Source of the DNA: an uncultured Xenococcaceae cyanobacterium
Lineage (GTDB): Bacteria > Cyanobacteriota > Cyanobacteriia > Cyanobacteriales > Xenococcaceae
Assembly (NCBI GenBank): GCA_937996665.1
Contig: CALKUU010000069.1
Coordinates: 1 to 47,883 of the forward strand
Direction of reading: 5' to 3'
Length of the DNA: 47,883 nucleotides
Shown: piece after piece, positions 20,505 to 27,466 of the stretch
Position numbering within the stretch: position 1 is the first letter of the stretch
How the letters are laid out: every line of letters begins with the position of its first letter
Program-made: the position numbers and the translations under genes
Notes under the pieces: model-generated
The model's database searches: none
What the model was told of the DNA's origin: nothing
Seen by the model: the letters and a program-made list of their open reading frames with translations, nothing else

Positions 20505-20840
20505 TTAGTATCTGCTAGTACCAGGCTTGTAAACAATGAAACTTACAGTTTGACATTGTCTAATGTTGTCGAACCCAACTACGCGAATATAAGAATCAGA
20601 ATATTCAGAGCGGCACTCACGAACTTCAGCTAATACTTCTTGAGCAGAACGACAGTTGAACAAAGGAAGTTTCCACAATGTCCAGTGGTGAAGTTCAGGA
20701 GTAGGATCTTTTTCAAATTCGATTCCAGGAATATAGCCATTTTCAAGCATATATTCAATCTGTCTAGTGATCTGTTGATCAGTTAGAGGTGGTAAATAAG
20801 AGAGAGTTTCGTACCGAGGCTCTTTAGGTAATGTTTTCAT
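20505..20840 (-). CDS. rbcS: Ribulose-bisphosphate carboxylase small subunit
   Basis: 111 residues, the normal length for cyanobacterial form IB small subunits. Clear motifs: [44 protein letters not shown] and [23 protein letters not shown]. It assembles as eight copies on the RbcL octamer in the carboxysome and is the domain mimicked by the C-terminal repeats of CcmM. It is the third gene of rbcLXS, 11 bases after rbcX, with GGAT as ribosome site. Confidence 0.98.
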
Positions 20841-20851
20841 GCTTTTATCCT

Positions 20852-21259
20852 TTACGTGTTTTCGTCAGAAGATTCATCTGCATCCGACTCAGAATCGATA
20901 TCAAATGCATCAGAAGGAGATTGAGTAAGACGTTCCAAAAGACGACGACGATGAATCAAATTAGCTTCTTGTACCGAAACACAAACCATTCCTGGTAGAT
21001 GTTCCATAACCTGCTTAGCTAAATCATCACGGACAGTCAAAACTCTCATAATCAAAGGCTTTCCACGAATTTCGCTCATCAACCCATCAAGATACTTTTC
21101 TGCGTCCTGAAGTTTTCCACCCGACGAGTATTGTCTAAGCCAAATAGCTTCACCAGGGTTTGTTTCGGTTAACTGATCGATAATTATTTTGACCGCTTGA
21201 TAAGTGAGATAGTTTTGAACAACTTTCGTTGTATCCCTAGCGATGTCTATGGGTTGCAT
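20852..21259 (-). CDS. rbcX: Rubisco assembly chaperone RbcX
   Basis: 135 residues. RbcX dimers clamp the C-terminus of RbcL and hold antiparallel RbcL dimers until RbcS binds. Recognisable parts are [34 protein letters not shown], and [33 protein letters not shown]. The acidic tail after residue ~115 ([12 protein letters not shown]) is longer and more acidic than in many homologs. It sits between rbcL and rbcS, as in many cyanobacteria. Confidence 0.96.
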
Positions 21260-21359
21260 CTTGGTTGAGCTAACAGTAAGCCGTATTCTAAAAAAACTTT
21301 CGATTTCTAATTAGAAATTATCTTTCTAATTTTGATCAATAATTTAATTAATTACCGCT

Positions 21360-21380
21360 TACTGATAACTGTTTACTGTT
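21360..21380. repeat. Heptamer tandem repeat next to the rbcL stop (STRR type)
   Basis: Three consecutive heptamers TACTGAT, AACTGTT, TACTGTT directly abut the rbcL stop codon at 21381. Short tandem heptamer repeats (STRR) of this sort are known in cyanobacterial intergenic DNA, including rbcL-rbcX spacers. Confidence 0.6.
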
Positions 21381-22799
21381 TTAAATAGTATCCATTGCTT
21401 CAAATTCAAACTTGATCTCTTTCCAGAGTTCACAAGCAGCAGCCAACTCAGGAGACCAACGGCAAGCTTCACGAAGAACATCGTTACCTTCACGAGCCAA
21501 GTTGCGACCTTCGTTACGAGCTTGAACACAAGCCTCAAGAGCGACACGGTTAGCAGTTGCACCAGGAGCATTACCCCAAGGGTGACCCAAAGTACCACCA
21601 CCAAACTGTAGACAAGAATCGTCGCCGAAGATTTCAACTAGTGCAGGCATGTGCCACACGTGAATACCACCAGACGCAACAGGCATAGTTCCACCCATAG
21701 AAGCGTAATCTTGAGTGAAGAAAATACCGCGAGAACGGTCTTCCTCTACATAGTCTTCGCGCATTAAATCAACGAATCCCATAGTAATTTCGCGCTCACC
21801 CTCTAATTTCCCAACAACGGTACCAGAGTGTAAGTGGTCACCACCAGAAAGACGTAGACACTTAGCTAGAACGCGGAAGTGAATACCATGATTTCTTTGA
21901 CGGTCAATTACTGCGTGCATTGCACGGTGAATGTGGAGTAATACACCGTTTTTGCGACACCACTTAGACAAAGTCGTGTTAGCAGTAAAACCACCAGTTA
22001 AGAAATCATGCATAACGATAGGAGTACCAATTTCTTTGGCGAACTCAGCACGTTCCATCATTTCTTCGCAAGTTGCAGCAGTTACGTTAAGGTAATGACC
22101 TTTAATTTCGTTTGTTTCTGCTTGAGCTTTTTCGATCGCTTCTTGAACGAATAAAAATCTATCTCTCCAGCGCATGAAAGGCTGAGAGTTAATGTTTTCG
22201 TCATCTTTCGTAAAGTCAAGACCACCACGTAAACATTCGTACACTGCACGACCGTAGTTTTTAGCGGATAGACCTAACTTGGGCTTAATCGTACAACCAA
22301 GTAAAGGACGACCATATTTGTTTAAATGATCTCGTTCTACAGTAATCCCGTGAGGAGGTCCAGGGAACGTTTTGATTAAAGCAACTGGAAAACGAATATC
22401 TTCCAAGCGCAAAGCGCGTAAGGCTTTAAATCCGAATACGTTACCAACTAAAGAAGTTAGTACGTTAGTTACTGATCCTTCTTCAAACAAATCTAGAGGG
22501 TAAGCGATAAAGCAGAAATACTGATTATCTTCACCAGGAACAGGTTCTACATCGTAGCAACGACCTTTATAGCGATCCAAGTCTGTAAGGTTATCAGTCC
22601 AAACAGTAGTCCAAGTACCAGTAGAAGATTCTGCCGCAACTGCCGCAGCAGCCTCTTCAGCAGGAACTCCTGGCTGAGGAGTCATACGGAAACAAGCTAA
22701 TAAGTCGGTATCTTTGGGAGTATAGTCAGGAGTGTAATAGGTAAGACGATAGTCTTGTACACCTGCGTCAAATCCTGCCGCTGATTTGGTTTGTGCCAT
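21381..22799 (-). CDS. rbcL: Ribulose-bisphosphate carboxylase large subunit (form IB)
   Basis: 472 residues, the usual form IB length. The carbamylated lysine lies in [11 protein letters not shown], the catalytic lysine region is TIKPKLGLS, loop 6 is VVGKLEGE, and [12 protein letters not shown] and [15 protein letters not shown] are intact. It fixes CO2 to ribulose-1,5-bisphosphate inside the beta-carboxysome. Start ATG with a strong GGAGGA ribosome site 11 bases upstream. First gene of rbcLXS, with a ~590-base leader and promoter region before it. Confidence 0.99.
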
Positions 22800-23389: not shown

Positions 23390-24133
23390 TTACAGATTCT
23401 TCTTATGCGGAAATAATGTACCAATAAGCTCTTCTATATATCCCTTTCCAATCGTGATATTCGTACCAATCGTGATAGATTTATTTTCTTTTTCTACTGT
23501 TTCTTTTGGTTTTACTTTATCAAAATTAACTTTTCTTATCTCTTCTTCCTTCCAAGGATCTCCTTCGTTATTAATATTAATATTATGAGGTGAAATATTA
23601 TTATCAGATGGAGAAGTTGTCTTCGTATTTTTTCCTAATTTCTTTCTCTGATTTCCTTGAATAAAACCTATATTTATTCCTTGCTTTTCATTCTTAACGC
23701 CTGTGTCAATATTTTCACTGGTCGGCAGATCTTCTTTTTGAACAGCTTCTGTTTCACTGGAAGGAGGAGAAGCCTTATTAAAACTGGGATTACAACCAAG
23801 AATTGAACCTGGTGGCACAACCTTCATCGCTTCCACCGAAGAATTGAAAACAGTAGTAGAAGTTCCTAAGCAAGCATTTTTGCCAACATGACTATAGCCA
23901 ACAATTAAAACCCCAGAACCCAAAGTAGCGCCATCGCAAATTTCGACATTGCCATTATGAGCATTTATGATTACCCCCATTCCTAGGCAAACATCAACGC
24001 CAATAATAATCCGACTATTTGAAGTTGCTTGTAAAACTACCCCTGGTGCGATCGAAGCACTAGGATGGATCTCAACATCGCCACAAATACGAATTTCTGA
24101 ATTGGTGACAGGTTGCAGGGGTGGTAAATACAT
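23390..24133 (-). CDS. ccmN: Carboxysome assembly protein CcmN
   Basis: 247 residues from the ATG at 24133 (MYLPPLQPVTNSE), where CcmN proteins normally begin; the frame also has an upstream ATG at 24208 that would add 25 unconserved residues. The N-terminal domain is a left-handed beta-helix of hexapeptide repeats (IHPSASIAPGVVL, IIIGVDVCLGMGVIINA). A long polar linker follows. The C-terminus GKGYIEELIGTLFPHKK is the amphipathic encapsulation peptide that binds the CcmK shell. CcmN bridges the CcmM-Rubisco core and the shell. Last gene of the ccm operon. Confidence 0.93.
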   Translation of the reverse strand: MYLPPLQPVTNSEIRICGDVEIHPSASIAPGVVLQATSNSRIIIGVDVCLGMGVIINAHNGNVEICDGATLGSGVLIVGYSHVGKNACLGTSTTVFNSSVEAMKVVPPGSILGCNPSFNKASPPSSETEAVQKEDLPTSENIDTGVKNEKQGINIGFIQGNQRKKLGKNTKTTSPSDNNISPHNININNEGDPWKEEEIRKVNFDKVKPKETVEKENKSITIGTNITIGKGYIEELIGTLFPHKKNL

Positions 24134-24305
24134 TCTGGATATAATTAATTCTTGGCTTTTCTGTGGCAATAACCGATAATGCTTAGCACTCTTTTCGTAA
24201 CCACCCAATTTTTTTCCGAGAGTTTAGAGGGACTTTGCCATAAACCCCCAGATTTTACAATTTCGAGATTGATAACAAAACAAAGCAACCTAAATTCAAG
24301 TAACT

Positions 24306-26324
24306 TTATGGACGTTGAATAACTTTTTCAGAAACTCGACGTTTAGCAGCAGAATCGATACCAATTATTCTGACGTATTCTCCGGCATGCTCTTGAAGAC
24401 AAGCTTCTAAAGCCGCAACTACACTTGACTCATTATTACTTTCGATTGGAGAGCAAGTTTGCCAAGATTTTGTTTTAAAACGACGTTTATTAGCATGTTC
24501 AGTACCGATTTTAAGACCAGCTGAAAGTAATGAACGAACCTCTTTGAGAGCCTCAGAGTTAAGATTGGCGCTGGATAGACCATTACCATTTCCATTTCCA
24601 TTCGTGTAACTCTTAAAACTAGAATTACCGTTAGAGGGAGTAAAGCTACTACCACCAGAGTTATTAGCAGAAGCTGATTTCGCACTACCAGGTCGTTGAA
24701 TAATTGTTTCGGAAACTCGACGTCTAGCATTCGGATCAATTCCAATCAACCTAACGTATTCTCCAGAATGCTCTTGAAGACAAGCTTCTAAGGCAGCTAT
24801 GACATCTGATTTTCTAGCACTGGCGATGGGAGAACAAGTTTGCCAAGACTTGGTTTTGAAGCGGCGACTAGATGCATGTTCTGTTCCTATTTTATAGCCT
24901 GAAGCTAGCAAAGAATTAACTTCATTTTGGATCTCAGCGCTAAGAGCACCATTGCGACCAGCACTCTCACGATAACCACCACCGCTTCTACCGCCACCAA
25001 AACTATGAAGACTATTTGAGTTACTAACACCCAAGCCTTCTCCTGGACGCTGCACAATAATTTCAGCTAGACGCTTTTTCTCTTTTGTATCTACACCAAT
25101 TACTTGAAGATAATCTTGAGGATATTGAGAAGCAATCGATTCTAGCTCTGCCATCACTTGGTTAGAACTACCTTTGAGCATCCCTACAGTCAGCCAAGAC
25201 TTGGTTTTAAAGCGACGCTTGCTTGCTCTTTCAATGCAAAGATTGCAACCCTGAGACAACAAACCACCAATTTGTTCGGATACTCCACTCCCAAAACTAG
25301 CTCTCGAATTGCTAGAGAAACTCTTTCTGCCAACATTTGAGCCAGTTGCAGCTAAACCACTATTGCTATCGCCAGGGCGCTGCACAATAATTTCGAGGAC
25401 TCGTTTCCGAGCTTTGCGATCAACCCCTACTAGCTTGACGTACTCACCTTGATGCTCTTGAAGGATTTTATTTAACTGAGGAATTATCTGATCTTCTCTA
25501 TTACCTGAGATTGTACCGCCAGTAATCCAAGATTTTGTTTTAAAACGACGCTTATTAGCATGCTCAACAGTAATCGTACATCCTTGTGCTAATAGAGAAG
25601 ATAGCTGCGATCTGGTATCGTTATTCGAACTCATAATTTCTACTGAATTTATATAACTATTATTTTTAGATATGTCTGAAGAATCTGGATAGGAATCAAA
25701 ATTCTTCTGAGTATGATTTAAACGAACGGAATTTTCTTCCACACATTGATATTCGCTTACCAAAGCTTCGTTAATCTCGATTACTTGACGTGCAAAAAAG
25801 CGATCGCTCTCTTTGACATCAGACAGTTGCGCTACTTGCTCCTGAGTTGTAATCACCGAACCCGAAGGAATATACTTATTCGCCGGAATTTCCACATCCT
25901 GAAGAAGAACATGCATCATGATGATGCATCCATTCCCTATCTTGGAATTCAGAATTGTAGAACGAAAACCAATAAAACAATCATCTCCTATAAATGTAGG
26001 ACCATGAACCAGGGACATCTGTGTAACACAGGTACTATTCCCGATCCAAACTGAATATTTTTGCTGATCCTCTCCCTTGACTCGCCCCTTCTCTAAGCCA
26101 TTTAAGACAACCCCATCTTGGATATTTGCACTGTCTCCTAAATAAAAAGAAGTCCCATCATCGGCCCGAACAGAGCTTCCAGGAGCAACAAAAACATTAT
26201 TGCCAACCCTTATATCTCCACTTAGCGGGGAAACCGAATCACCATAAGCTTCATTATTAATCTGGGATTCTTCAAGACCTTGAGACCAAGGAGAAGGAGG
26301 AGCAGCCTGTTTATGGGCTGGCAT
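24306..26324 (-). CDS. ccmM: Carboxysome scaffold CcmM (gamma-CA-like domain plus four Rubisco-small-subunit-like repeats)
   Basis: 672 residues. Residues ~30-210 form a gamma-carbonic-anhydrase-like beta-helix. Of the three zinc ligands of active relatives, position 75 is Asn (GVVLNGL) and 102 is Gln (CVTQMSLVHGP), while His107 remains, so catalysis is unlikely. Four RbcS-like modules follow, with RRFKTKSW near residues 261, 373, 491 and 618, joined by Ser/Gly/Asn-rich linkers. These bind Rubisco and condense it into the procarboxysome. An internal ATG at 25634 (residue 231, MSSNNDTRSQ) is positioned to give the short four-module form. It lies between ccmL and ccmN. Confidence 0.97.
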   Translation of the reverse strand: MPAHKQAAPPSPWSQGLEESQINNEAYGDSVSPLSGDIRVGNNVFVAPGSSVRADDGTSFYLGDSANIQDGVVLNGLEKGRVKGEDQQKYSVWIGNSTCVTQMSLVHGPTFIGDDCFIGFRSTILNSKIGNGCIIMMHVLLQDVEIPANKYIPSGSVITTQEQVAQLSDVKESDRFFARQVIEINEALVSEYQCVEENSVRLNHTQKNFDSYPDSSDISKNNSYINSVEIMSSNNDTRSQLSSLLAQGCTITVEHANKRRFKTKSWITGGTISGNREDQIIPQLNKILQEHQGEYVKLVGVDRKARKRVLEIIVQRPGDSNSGLAATGSNVGRKSFSSNSRASFGSGVSEQIGGLLSQGCNLCIERASKRRFKTKSWLTVGMLKGSSNQVMAELESIASQYPQDYLQVIGVDTKEKKRLAEIIVQRPGEGLGVSNSNSLHSFGGGRSGGGYRESAGRNGALSAEIQNEVNSLLASGYKIGTEHASSRRFKTKSWQTCSPIASARKSDVIAALEACLQEHSGEYVRLIGIDPNARRRVSETIIQRPGSAKSASANNSGGSSFTPSNGNSSFKSYTNGNGNGNGLSSANLNSEALKEVRSLLSAGLKIGTEHANKRRFKTKSWQTCSPIESNNESSVVAALEACLQEHAGEYVRIIGIDSAAKRRVSEKVIQRP
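25632..25634 (-). promoter_or_regulatory. Candidate internal translation start for short CcmM
   Basis: ATG at codon 231, just before the first RbcS-like module. Initiation here would give a 442-residue form with four modules and no gamma-CA domain, analogous to M35 of Synechococcus elongatus. Upstream is GTAGAAATT, at best a weak ribosome site. Confidence 0.5.
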
Positions 26325-26423: not shown

Positions 26424-26732
26424 CTACGAAAAGCGTTCTGTTTCTCTTTTGCTATACAAGGAGCGATTATCTAGAGAAACAGTATCGATGATCCCCACAA
26501 CAGTGGCATCTAAGGGGCGATCCTCATATCGAGACTCAATACGAGCAGCGCTACCTCTAGTAACAAGAACCCATTCATTTACTCCCGCCCCGACGATATC
26601 CCCTGCAACCTCGTACTTGGGTATTAATTGTCCTTCTTCATCAATAAATTGAACTAGTAACAACTTAACGCCAGTCATACTGGGGGCTTTATGGGTACTA
26701 ACCACGGTGCCACGAACTTTGGCAATCTGCAT
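26424..26732 (-). CDS. ccmL: Carboxysome shell vertex protein CcmL
   Basis: 102 residues of the EutN/CcmL (BMV) fold that forms pentamers closing the shell vertices. Recognisable parts are MQIAKVRGTVVSTHKAPSM, LLLVQFID, and the conserved pentamer-pore segment GAGVNEWVLVTRGSAAR. Start ATG. It lies 18 bases after ccmK1 and 99 bases before ccmM on the same strand. Length is normal. Confidence 0.98.
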   Translation of the reverse strand: MQIAKVRGTVVSTHKAPSMTGVKLLLVQFIDEEGQLIPKYEVAGDIVGAGVNEWVLVTRGSAARIESRYEDRPLDATVVGIIDTVSLDNRSLYSKRETERFS

Positions 26733-26750: not shown

Positions 26751-27089
26751 CTATGGTCTTCTTAATGGTTGTGGATTAACACTTTCTCGAAACTGCTCAA
26801 CTGCTTCGGTATAACGAATAGGCAGAACATATTCAAGGTTTTCATGAGGACGAGCAATAATATGATTGGAAAGAACTTGTCCACCATTAACACGACCGAC
26901 ATTTTCAATTCCTGCTGAAACAGAAGCTTGAACCTCAGAAACATCACCACGAACAATTACTGTTACTCGGCCTGTTCCAATTTTTTCATAACCAACTAGA
27001 GTAACCCTAGCTGCTTTAACCATGGCATCGGCAGCCTCTACAACTGCTGGAAAGCCTAACGTTTCAACCATTCCTACTGCAATAGACAT
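26751..27089 (-). CDS. ccmK1: Carboxysome shell hexamer protein CcmK1
   Basis: 112 residues, single BMC domain. It shares almost the whole first 60 residues ([39 protein letters not shown]) with the adjacent CcmK2 and differs in the [16 protein letters not shown] region and in a longer tail ending NPQPLRRP, as in CcmK1 of Synechocystis. The KIGTGR loop lines the hexamer pore through which bicarbonate and phosphorylated substrates pass. It is second in the ccm operon. Confidence 0.94.
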
Positions 27090-27154
27090 TAGTCTTACTC
27101 CTTAATAAAATTGTACTTTTCTAATCTGAGTCAATTAATCTTCCGACGTACTAA

Positions 27155-27466
27155 TTAATACGTTCGGAACTGCTCAACTTCTTCGGTATAACGAATAGGC
27201 AAAACATACTCGAGGTTTTCATGAGGACGGGCAATGATATGTGTAGACAAGACCTCTCCACCATTTACTCGGTTTGCAGCCTCGATTCCTGCTGAAACAG
27301 AAGCCTGAACCTCAGAAACGTCGCCACGAACAATTACTGTTACTCGGCCTGTTCCAATTTTTTCATAGCCAACTAGAGTAACCCTAGCTGCTTTGACCAT
27401 AGCATCGGCAGCTTCTACAACCGCTGGAAATCCGAGAGTTTCAATCATTCCTACTGCAATAGGCAT
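27155..27466 (-). CDS. ccmK2: Carboxysome shell hexamer protein CcmK2
   Basis: 103 residues, single BMC domain, the main shell tile of beta-carboxysomes. It carries [20 protein letters not shown], the pore loop KIGTGR and [16 protein letters not shown]. First gene of the ccmK2-K1-L-M-N operon, 65 bases ahead of ccmK1, from which it is a tandem duplicate with high DNA similarity. A GGAAGGA ribosome site precedes the ATG. The promoter lies in the 750-base divergent region shared with ndhF4. Confidence 0.96.

Follow-up and report, generated by a model that had tools for sequence, protein, structure and literature searches.

The locus analysed here raises the question of whether the γ-carbonic anhydrase (γ-CA) domain of its CcmM still catalyses and, if it does not, which enzyme produces CO2 in the carboxysome. 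The window, the whole stretch of 47,883 nucleotides from an uncultured Xenococcaceae cyanobacterium, carries a carboxysome locus on its minus strand, in the order ccmK-ccmK-ccmL-ccmM-ccmN-rbcL-rbcX-rbcS in the list of open reading frames. The preliminary description had read the residues aligned to the three zinc-binding histidines of active CcmM as Asn75, Gln102 and His107, had taken the domain to be structural only and had predicted a separate carboxysomal carbonic anhydrase (CA) such as CcaA.

The ccm-rbc locus and the active site of CcmM

The gene order of the ccm-rbc locus is identical in the relative G388 (L294). The names ccmK, ccmL, rbcL, rbcX and rbcS are presumed, and the locus comprises the following features.

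20505-22799, minus strand: rbcL (21381-22799), rbcX (20852-21259) and rbcS (20505-20840), open reading frames, presumed names
23390-24208, minus strand: ccmN, NCBIfam beta_CO2some_N at 152.4 bits (cut-off 100)
24306-26324, minus strand: ccmM, 672 amino acids, a γ-CA-like N-terminal domain and four SSUL (RbcS-like) modules, from the open reading frame and NCBIfam, Pfam and PDB matches
24309-24563, minus strand: SSUL module 4, residues 588-672, matching 9fwv and Pfam RuBisCO_small
24684-24947, minus strand: SSUL module 3, residues 460-547, overlapping a match to the CcmM SSUL structures 6hba and 6mr1, and matching Pfam RuBisCO_small
25041-25289, minus strand: SSUL module 2, residues 346-428, Pfam RuBisCO_small, limits set by eye
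25371-25631, minus strand: SSUL module 1, residues 232-318, Pfam RuBisCO_small, limits set by eye
25725-26324, minus strand: γ-CA-like domain, residues 1-200, on a long branch, putatively catalytically dead
26424-26732, minus strand: ccmL, open reading frame in the same order in the relative (L294), presumed name
26751-27466, minus strand: two ccmK genes (26751-27089 and 27155-27466), open reading frames, presumed names

The ccmM product scores 772.7 bits against NCBIfam beta_CO2some_M (cut-off 550), and Pfam RuBisCO_small matches it in four stretches. With a γ-CA-like domain followed by SSUL modules, encoded within a ccmKKLMN locus, it has the make-up of a β-carboxysome scaffold. No strong ribosome site was seen by eye before the internal start Met231, and the window genome gave a single CcmM match at E <= 1e-10, hence no second copy and no single-SSUL satellite. 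The neighbouring ccmN (23390-24208) is highly divergent in the family, with about 51% mean identity among 16 relatives, and is not clearly accelerated in the window.

Over residues 4-197 the window CcmM can be aligned to T. elongatus CcmM209 (3kwc, E 1.4e-77) with no gap. The motif VVIHG of 3kwc reads VVLNG in the window, which places Asn at 75, and SITHMALIHG reads CVTQMSLVHG, which places Gln at 102 and His at 107; this alignment confirms the earlier assignment to the exact residue number. The affected codons, with coordinates of the ligand codons obtained by arithmetic, are these.

26100-26102, minus strand: codon 75, Asn for zinc ligand His75 (3kwc alignment; His in 20/20 relatives)
26019-26021, minus strand: codon 102, Gln for zinc ligand His102 (3kwc alignment; His in 20/20 relatives)
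26004-26006, minus strand: codon 107, ligand His107 kept (3kwc alignment)
25725-25727, minus strand: codon 200, Val for Cys200, partner of Cys194 in the activating disulfide (pair in 20/20 relatives read)

Position 56, which presumably corresponds to Glu62 of the archaeal enzyme Cam in the usual Cam numbering, has changed from Glu to Asp (E56D; Glu in 20/20 relatives read), while R53, D55, Q69 and D70 are retained. The Cys194-Cys200 pair is known from the T. elongatus enzyme, according to the available part of PMC13249358, and with Val at position 200 it cannot form in the window CcmM. Both the full set of three His ligands (75, 102 and 107) and the Cys194-Cys200 pair of active CcmM are therefore absent. 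All 20 of the other family genomes read, out of 26 in the comparison, have the intact triad (HHH) together with the Cys pair, and the Asn-Gln-His triad occurs in one of the 242 CcmM read, that of the window itself. A frame error was rejected as the source of the ligand losses, the reading frame being open and HHH present in all 20 of those genomes. The AlphaFold2 model of the domain (18 alignment rows, pLDDT 65.3, pTM 0.56), with 3kwc as its best Foldseek match at a TM of only 0.30, is too poor to build on and was set aside. Judging from its residues, the γ-CA domain of the window has very likely lost catalysis.

CcaA, its C-terminal tail and the C2-docking groove

The window genome (G000; 4.15 Mb, 96.7% complete) encodes two β-CAs. 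One is a ccaA at G000:C3:8919-9815, on another contig than ccmM, which among PDB chains matches Synechocystis CcaA best (5swc, E 1.7e-99, residues 1-209) and which keeps C39, D41, R43, H98 and C101, the core of a CcaA-type β-CA. The genome search for ccaA that the preliminary description had proposed thus returned an orthologue with intact zinc ligands, and a broken γ-CA and a ccaA occur together in this genome. The second β-CA (C216) has a twin-arginine-like leader by eye and matches bacterial β-CAs best, an α-CA with a signal-like leader (by eye) is also encoded, and no signal peptide is evident by eye in CcaA. In the genus mate G388, ccaA (L294 12673-13584) is found close to the ccm-rbc locus, about 4.6 kb downstream of rbcS and in the opposite orientation; a 2026 review states, in its accessible part, that ccaA never belongs to the operon (PMC13249358).

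The window-genome CcaA lacks the C2 peptide (of the W..EQ..RIYRG type). Its C-terminal feature is the following.

L001 2092-2298: CcaA tail, residues 231-299, about 65 conserved residues, predicted helical, also in L266-L287 and L036

The CcaA model (pLDDT 69.7) places helices at 229-242, 249-268, 273-282 and 284-294; its block means over residues 231-290 are 81-92, and in Foldseek the whole model returns β-CAs in its first 50 matches. We read 129 CcaA-like sequences: a pattern assigned a C2-type motif to 78, four more look like variants of it by eye, 31 have the helical tail and 16 are other, short or cut off. The helical tail is present in every one of the 24 strong CcaA in the window's family; the remaining seven of the 31 come from genus g129, to which Acaryochloris sp. 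CRU_2_0 belongs. A tail profile, built partly from several of its own matches, found nine of the 388 class genomes at E < 1e-20 (the window genome, G198 and seven of g129) and two further, marginal ones (0.004 and 0.008); outside the window's family, g129 is the only place among these 388 genomes where the tail occurs. No Pfam or NCBIfam family matches the tail above its cut-off, and no PDB chain explains it, the matches being weak ones to designed helical proteins, kinesin and antenna chains (best E 0.0013). A search of the open-licence PubMed Central literature found no published account of such a tail, and it goes unmentioned in the available portions of PMC5853843 and PMC8580825.

The surface of CcmM to which the C2 peptide docks is changed as well. 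In S. elongatus, as reported in the accessible text of PMC8580825, F123 of CcmM stacks on W257 of CcaA and D163 forms a salt bridge to R265 of CcaA. Both positions differ in the window.

25950-25952, minus strand: codon 125, Leu for Phe (S. elongatus F123; alignment, contact from PMC8580825)
25830-25832, minus strand: codon 165, Ala for Asp (S. elongatus D163; alignment, contact from PMC8580825)

Altogether, the S. elongatus contacts L81, F123, N124, R126, D141, E143, Q159 and D163 correspond to K, L, N, K, D, E, Q and A in the window, so that four of eight are changed. Position 126 is Arg in 77/79 C2-tailed genomes (four of them assigned by eye), in 0/22 helical-tailed genomes (all Lys) and in 58/73 genomes without CcaA. 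The corresponding counts are 76/79, 10/22 and 66/73 for Asp at D163, and 33/79, 0/22 and 5/73 for Leu at L81; D141 is Gly in 4/4 g129 genomes. The groove is most altered in the window, where F123L and D163A are added to Lys126. Of the other 40 genomes that combine a broken triad with CcaA, none has the helical tail: the tail is of C2 type in 35, of another kind or cut off in four and unread in one. Because those 35 C2-tailed genomes keep Arg126 (35), D163 (33) and F123 (32), catalytic loss alone does not, on this comparison, appear to erode the groove; it is the absence of C2 that accompanies groove change. Counter to this tie, Lys126 is also found in three relatives of the window's family (f1) without detected CcaA, and the two tail lineages are only two independent cases. 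The enrichment for C2 contacts is modest: they account for three of six altered conserved columns, compared with six of all 52 conserved columns (p 0.016). R126 was, in addition, one of the positions examined for contact between CcmM and SSUL, as stated in the part of PMC8580825 available to us.

Taken together, we consider it probable from these sequences that the window encodes a catalytically dead CcmM scaffold and that CcaA is the carboxysomal CA, recruited by a route other than C2. The γ-CA domain would have lost catalysis on the lineage leading to the window genome, and CcmM would probably still trimerise, bind CcmN and gather Rubisco by its four SSUL modules, while the CcaA-type β-CA encoded on another contig would take over carboxysomal CO2 production. 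The CcaA lineage would have swapped its C-terminal C2 docking peptide for the helical tail. Left with neither a C2 peptide to bind nor a reaction to catalyse, the γ-CA domain would have been freed of two major constraints and would have drifted, the rest of the carboxysome genes staying under near-normal selection. Beyond this, we propose only tentatively that there is a second route of CA into β-carboxysomes, in which the CcaA tail of the window's family and of Acaryochloris binds another carboxysome component; the C2 groove would then have been released in both lineages and, in that of the window, the whole γ-CA domain, catalysis and docking having been lost together.

With the C2 peptide missing from this CcaA and the groove changed, we can only infer that it is targeted to, and acts in, the carboxysome, which we regard as likely. 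Points that count against the preferred reading include these: a CcaA without C2 might not be carboxysomal at all, and in the relatives CcaA may be no substitute for CcmM, all 17 read relatives with the same type of CcaA having the γ-CA triad and the Cys pair intact. These points, together with the altered groove on CcmM, speak for an alternative in which the helical-tailed CcaA is non-carboxysomal and the carboxysome works without an internal CA or with one of unknown kind. A precedent is CahB1, a CcaA-like enzyme placed outside the cell in Sodalinema by the accessible part of PMC9865033. However, CcaA is without an evident signal peptide, whereas separate CAs in the same genome have leader-like starts. 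In Acaryochloris, moreover, where CcaA is of the same type, CcmM retains HHH, whereas the equivalents of Arg59 and Glu62 are lost (4/4) and the Cys pair is absent (present in 0/4); CcaA would thus be a main candidate CA there too, although one of these four genomes, G222, also has an intact single-SSUL satellite CcmM. On balance we judge a non-carboxysomal CcaA unlikely, though not far-fetched.

Local acceleration of the γ-CA domain

The N-terminal domain of the window is 0.612 identical to those of 16 family relatives, compared with 0.883 among the relatives (p-distance ratio 3.32). The same ratio lies between 0.76 and 1.24 for eleven other genes and SSUL modules of the ccm-rbc set (the rbcS value including one false match, G390) and is 0.92 for the CcaA core and 0.99 for the CcaA tail; the SSUL modules, at 1.13-1.24, lean weakly in the direction of the N-domain, which counts against our preferred reading. 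Relative-rate counts for the N-domain with G198 as outgroup are 52:7 (against the genus mate), 54:7 and 56:5 for three relatives (p 5e-9 to 7e-11), and near even for CcaA, rbcL, ccmL, ccmN and rbcX. A lean toward the window is seen against G391 in SSUL1 (9:1, p 0.011) and in the small sets of ccmK and rbcS (4:0, p 0.046). Thirty-seven of the 131 N-domain positions that are invariant in 20 relatives have changed in the window, and its terminal branch, a length that also depends on sampling density, is 0.94 against an f1 median of 0.035 and maximum of 0.093. The dN/dS of the N-domain relative to G388 is about 0.17 (0.22/1.31, with dS near saturation), and the domain therefore appears to be still under selection, presumably for fold and assembly; SSUL values between relatives are unreliable since the repeats can be mispaired.

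The earlier view of a structural-only domain thus gains support from the losses of ligands, disulfide and Glu62 equivalent, and from strong acceleration of this domain alone, which stays open and free of indels. A dead γ-CA domain is supported as the best reading of these residue losses and of the domain-only acceleration. A general decay of the carbon-concentrating machinery, as might occur in a symbiont or a high-CO2 habitat, with the ligand losses as one sign of it, is improbable. The genome is small, 4.15 Mb against 8.1 Mb for the sole genus mate in the comparison, and the SSUL modules are slightly fast, but ccmK, ccmL, ccmN, rbcL, rbcX, rbcS and CcaA are open, their rates of evolution are near normal and the genome retains three other CAs.

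We give a similarly small chance to the import of the N-domain by recombination from an unsampled distant lineage, as opposed to fast evolution in place. Identity to relatives is 59-64%, with up to 62% outside the family, and in the free tree window plus f1 do not make up one side of a branch (two changes; 0/200 bootstrap trees), two non-family rows lying among them. However, constraining window and f1 to stay together does not worsen the best tree (1.7 log units better, p-AU 0.54), the nearest row to the window by path is G388, of the same genus, with other near rows also from the family, and the window shares the f1-typical K128. As far as these sequences go, the residue loss is local to the window lineage. 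It is hardly credible that Asn75, Gln102 and His107 serve as ligands of a domain that still binds metal and is active: R53, D55, Q69, D70 and H107 are retained, but the domain is accelerated, E56 and the activating disulfide are lost, and we know of no CcmM with Asn-Gln-His ligands shown to be active.

Ligand loss across the class and comparison with known systems

We surveyed 388 genomes of the class, 317 of which have a match to the CcmM N-domain. The domain was read in 223 of the 317, chosen non-randomly by rank, genus and lack of CcaA, and in 19 more of the window's family, giving 242 CcmM, of which 197 have intact triads, 44 broken ones and one an unread one. The CcaA query matched at E <= 1e-10 in 299/388 genomes. 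CcaA was called at E < 1e-40, the best E-values splitting into a strong (< 1e-47) and a weak (> 1e-22) group, and a few 'present' calls may be wrong owing to a short-tailed CcaA-like paralogue of about 58% identity. This β-CA (e.g. G084:C47:7301-7918) lacks the long tail and occurs beside CcaA in several genomes.

CcaA is present in 41/44 genomes with a broken triad, and 70/73 read genomes without CcaA have an intact one. The three exceptions are weak or pseudogene-like, namely G330 (69% complete), G028 (99% complete, 8% contaminated, 800 contigs) and G384 (a stop in the domain). In G028 (L311), CcmM has H107Y and no CcaA was found, so that either the assembly has a gap or the carboxysome has no known CA. 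G384 (L167, 3.0 Mb) has no CcaA match, and the same-genus G354 (2.8 Mb) is without both CcmM domain and CcaA; the size and kinship of these two would fit reduced endosymbionts of the kind of diatom spheroid bodies. The rule that ligands are broken if and only if CcaA is present was ruled out: only one direction holds. Because 127/168 CcaA-positive genomes with a readable triad and 17/17 read family relatives having CcaA keep HHH, CcaA looks like a precondition of ligand loss, not a consequence of it. The earlier prediction of a separate CA therefore holds in that ccaA exists, but not as something that follows from ligand loss.

The Cys pair is present in 67/70 intact-triad genomes without CcaA, in 50/126 with CcaA (one more being unreadable) and in 2/41 of the broken group, counted with one unread-triad genome and without the window. 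Cys194-Cys200 is missing in 76/126 CcaA-positive HHH genomes, and a read HHH is absent from no more than 3 of the 120 CcmM that have the pair, which suggests for this sample that the activating disulfide is usually lost before the zinc ligands. The window lineage has lost both, and 20/20 relatives read keep both. Parsimony gives 14 to 15 triad changes. Fisher tests that ignore kinship, on non-randomly chosen genomes, give p 9e-5 for the triad and 2e-16 for the Cys pair against CcaA. Of the 9 to 10 independent tree pairs that differ in CcaA (starred branches), about 1.7 to 1.8 differ in the Cys pair, without exception the expected way round; for the triad the figure is 1.2 in the expected and 0.1 or 1.0 (two trees) in the opposite direction. 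None of these kinship-corrected tests reached 0.05, the pairs being too few, and the associations of triad and Cys pair with CcaA therefore lie mainly between clades.

Satellite CcmM copies are described in the accessible part of PMC5853843. Short CcmM-like copies at L019, L028, L063, L064, L066, L096, L097, L099, L101, L102, L105, L106 and other loci keep HHH in 24/24 read (two of them distant) and the Cys pair in 20/22; the 12 with enough sequence have one SSUL module. Some genomes, e.g. G022, G155 and G308, pair a broken main CcmM with an intact satellite, and a division of labour between the two is possible.

An active CcmM where CcaA is absent, and an often inactive one where it is present, is a published scheme, in the available parts of PMC5472144, PMC9120777, PMC9865033 and PMC13249358. 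The dead-CcmM-plus-CcaA arrangement is thus already known, and what appears new here is the CcaA tail and the groove. The identity and packaging of the β-carboxysome CA bear on rebuilding carboxysomes in crops. If our reading is true, a C2-less CcaA with an altered CcmM groove would mean that the recruitment rule of S. elongatus is not universal, and would point to a small helical module whose partner is open to direct search.

Among known systems, the active γ-CA of T. elongatus BP-1, CcmM209 (3kwc), matches the window domain in an ungapped alignment of residues 4-197, whereas the window lacks His75, His102 and Cys200 and the T. elongatus genome, in the sources as available, lacks CcaA. The CcmM of Synechocystis PCC 6803 and S. 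elongatus PCC 7942 resemble that of the window in joining a γ-CA-like domain to SSUL modules, in being called non-functional in the literature available to us and in having CcaA in the genome. Because S. elongatus CcmM is so called despite a triad that is intact in the alignment, the ligands are not the whole story. The usual structural role of the domain includes docking CcaA by its C2 peptide, as described for S. elongatus in the accessible text of PMC8580825; there peptide and groove are both present, whereas the window has lost two ligands, its CcaA is without C2 and its groove is altered. Synechocystis CcaA (5swc) aligns with residues 1-209 of the window-genome CcaA, but the latter ends in a conserved tail predicted to be helical instead of a hydrophilic linker with C2. 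Synechocystis PCC 6803 reportedly depends on high CO2 once its ccaA is removed. Finally, the CcaA of g129 (Acaryochloris) shares the helical tail, with Lys at CcmM position 126 in 4/4; unlike the window CcmM, its CcmM keeps HHH, having lost instead the equivalents of Arg59 and Glu62.
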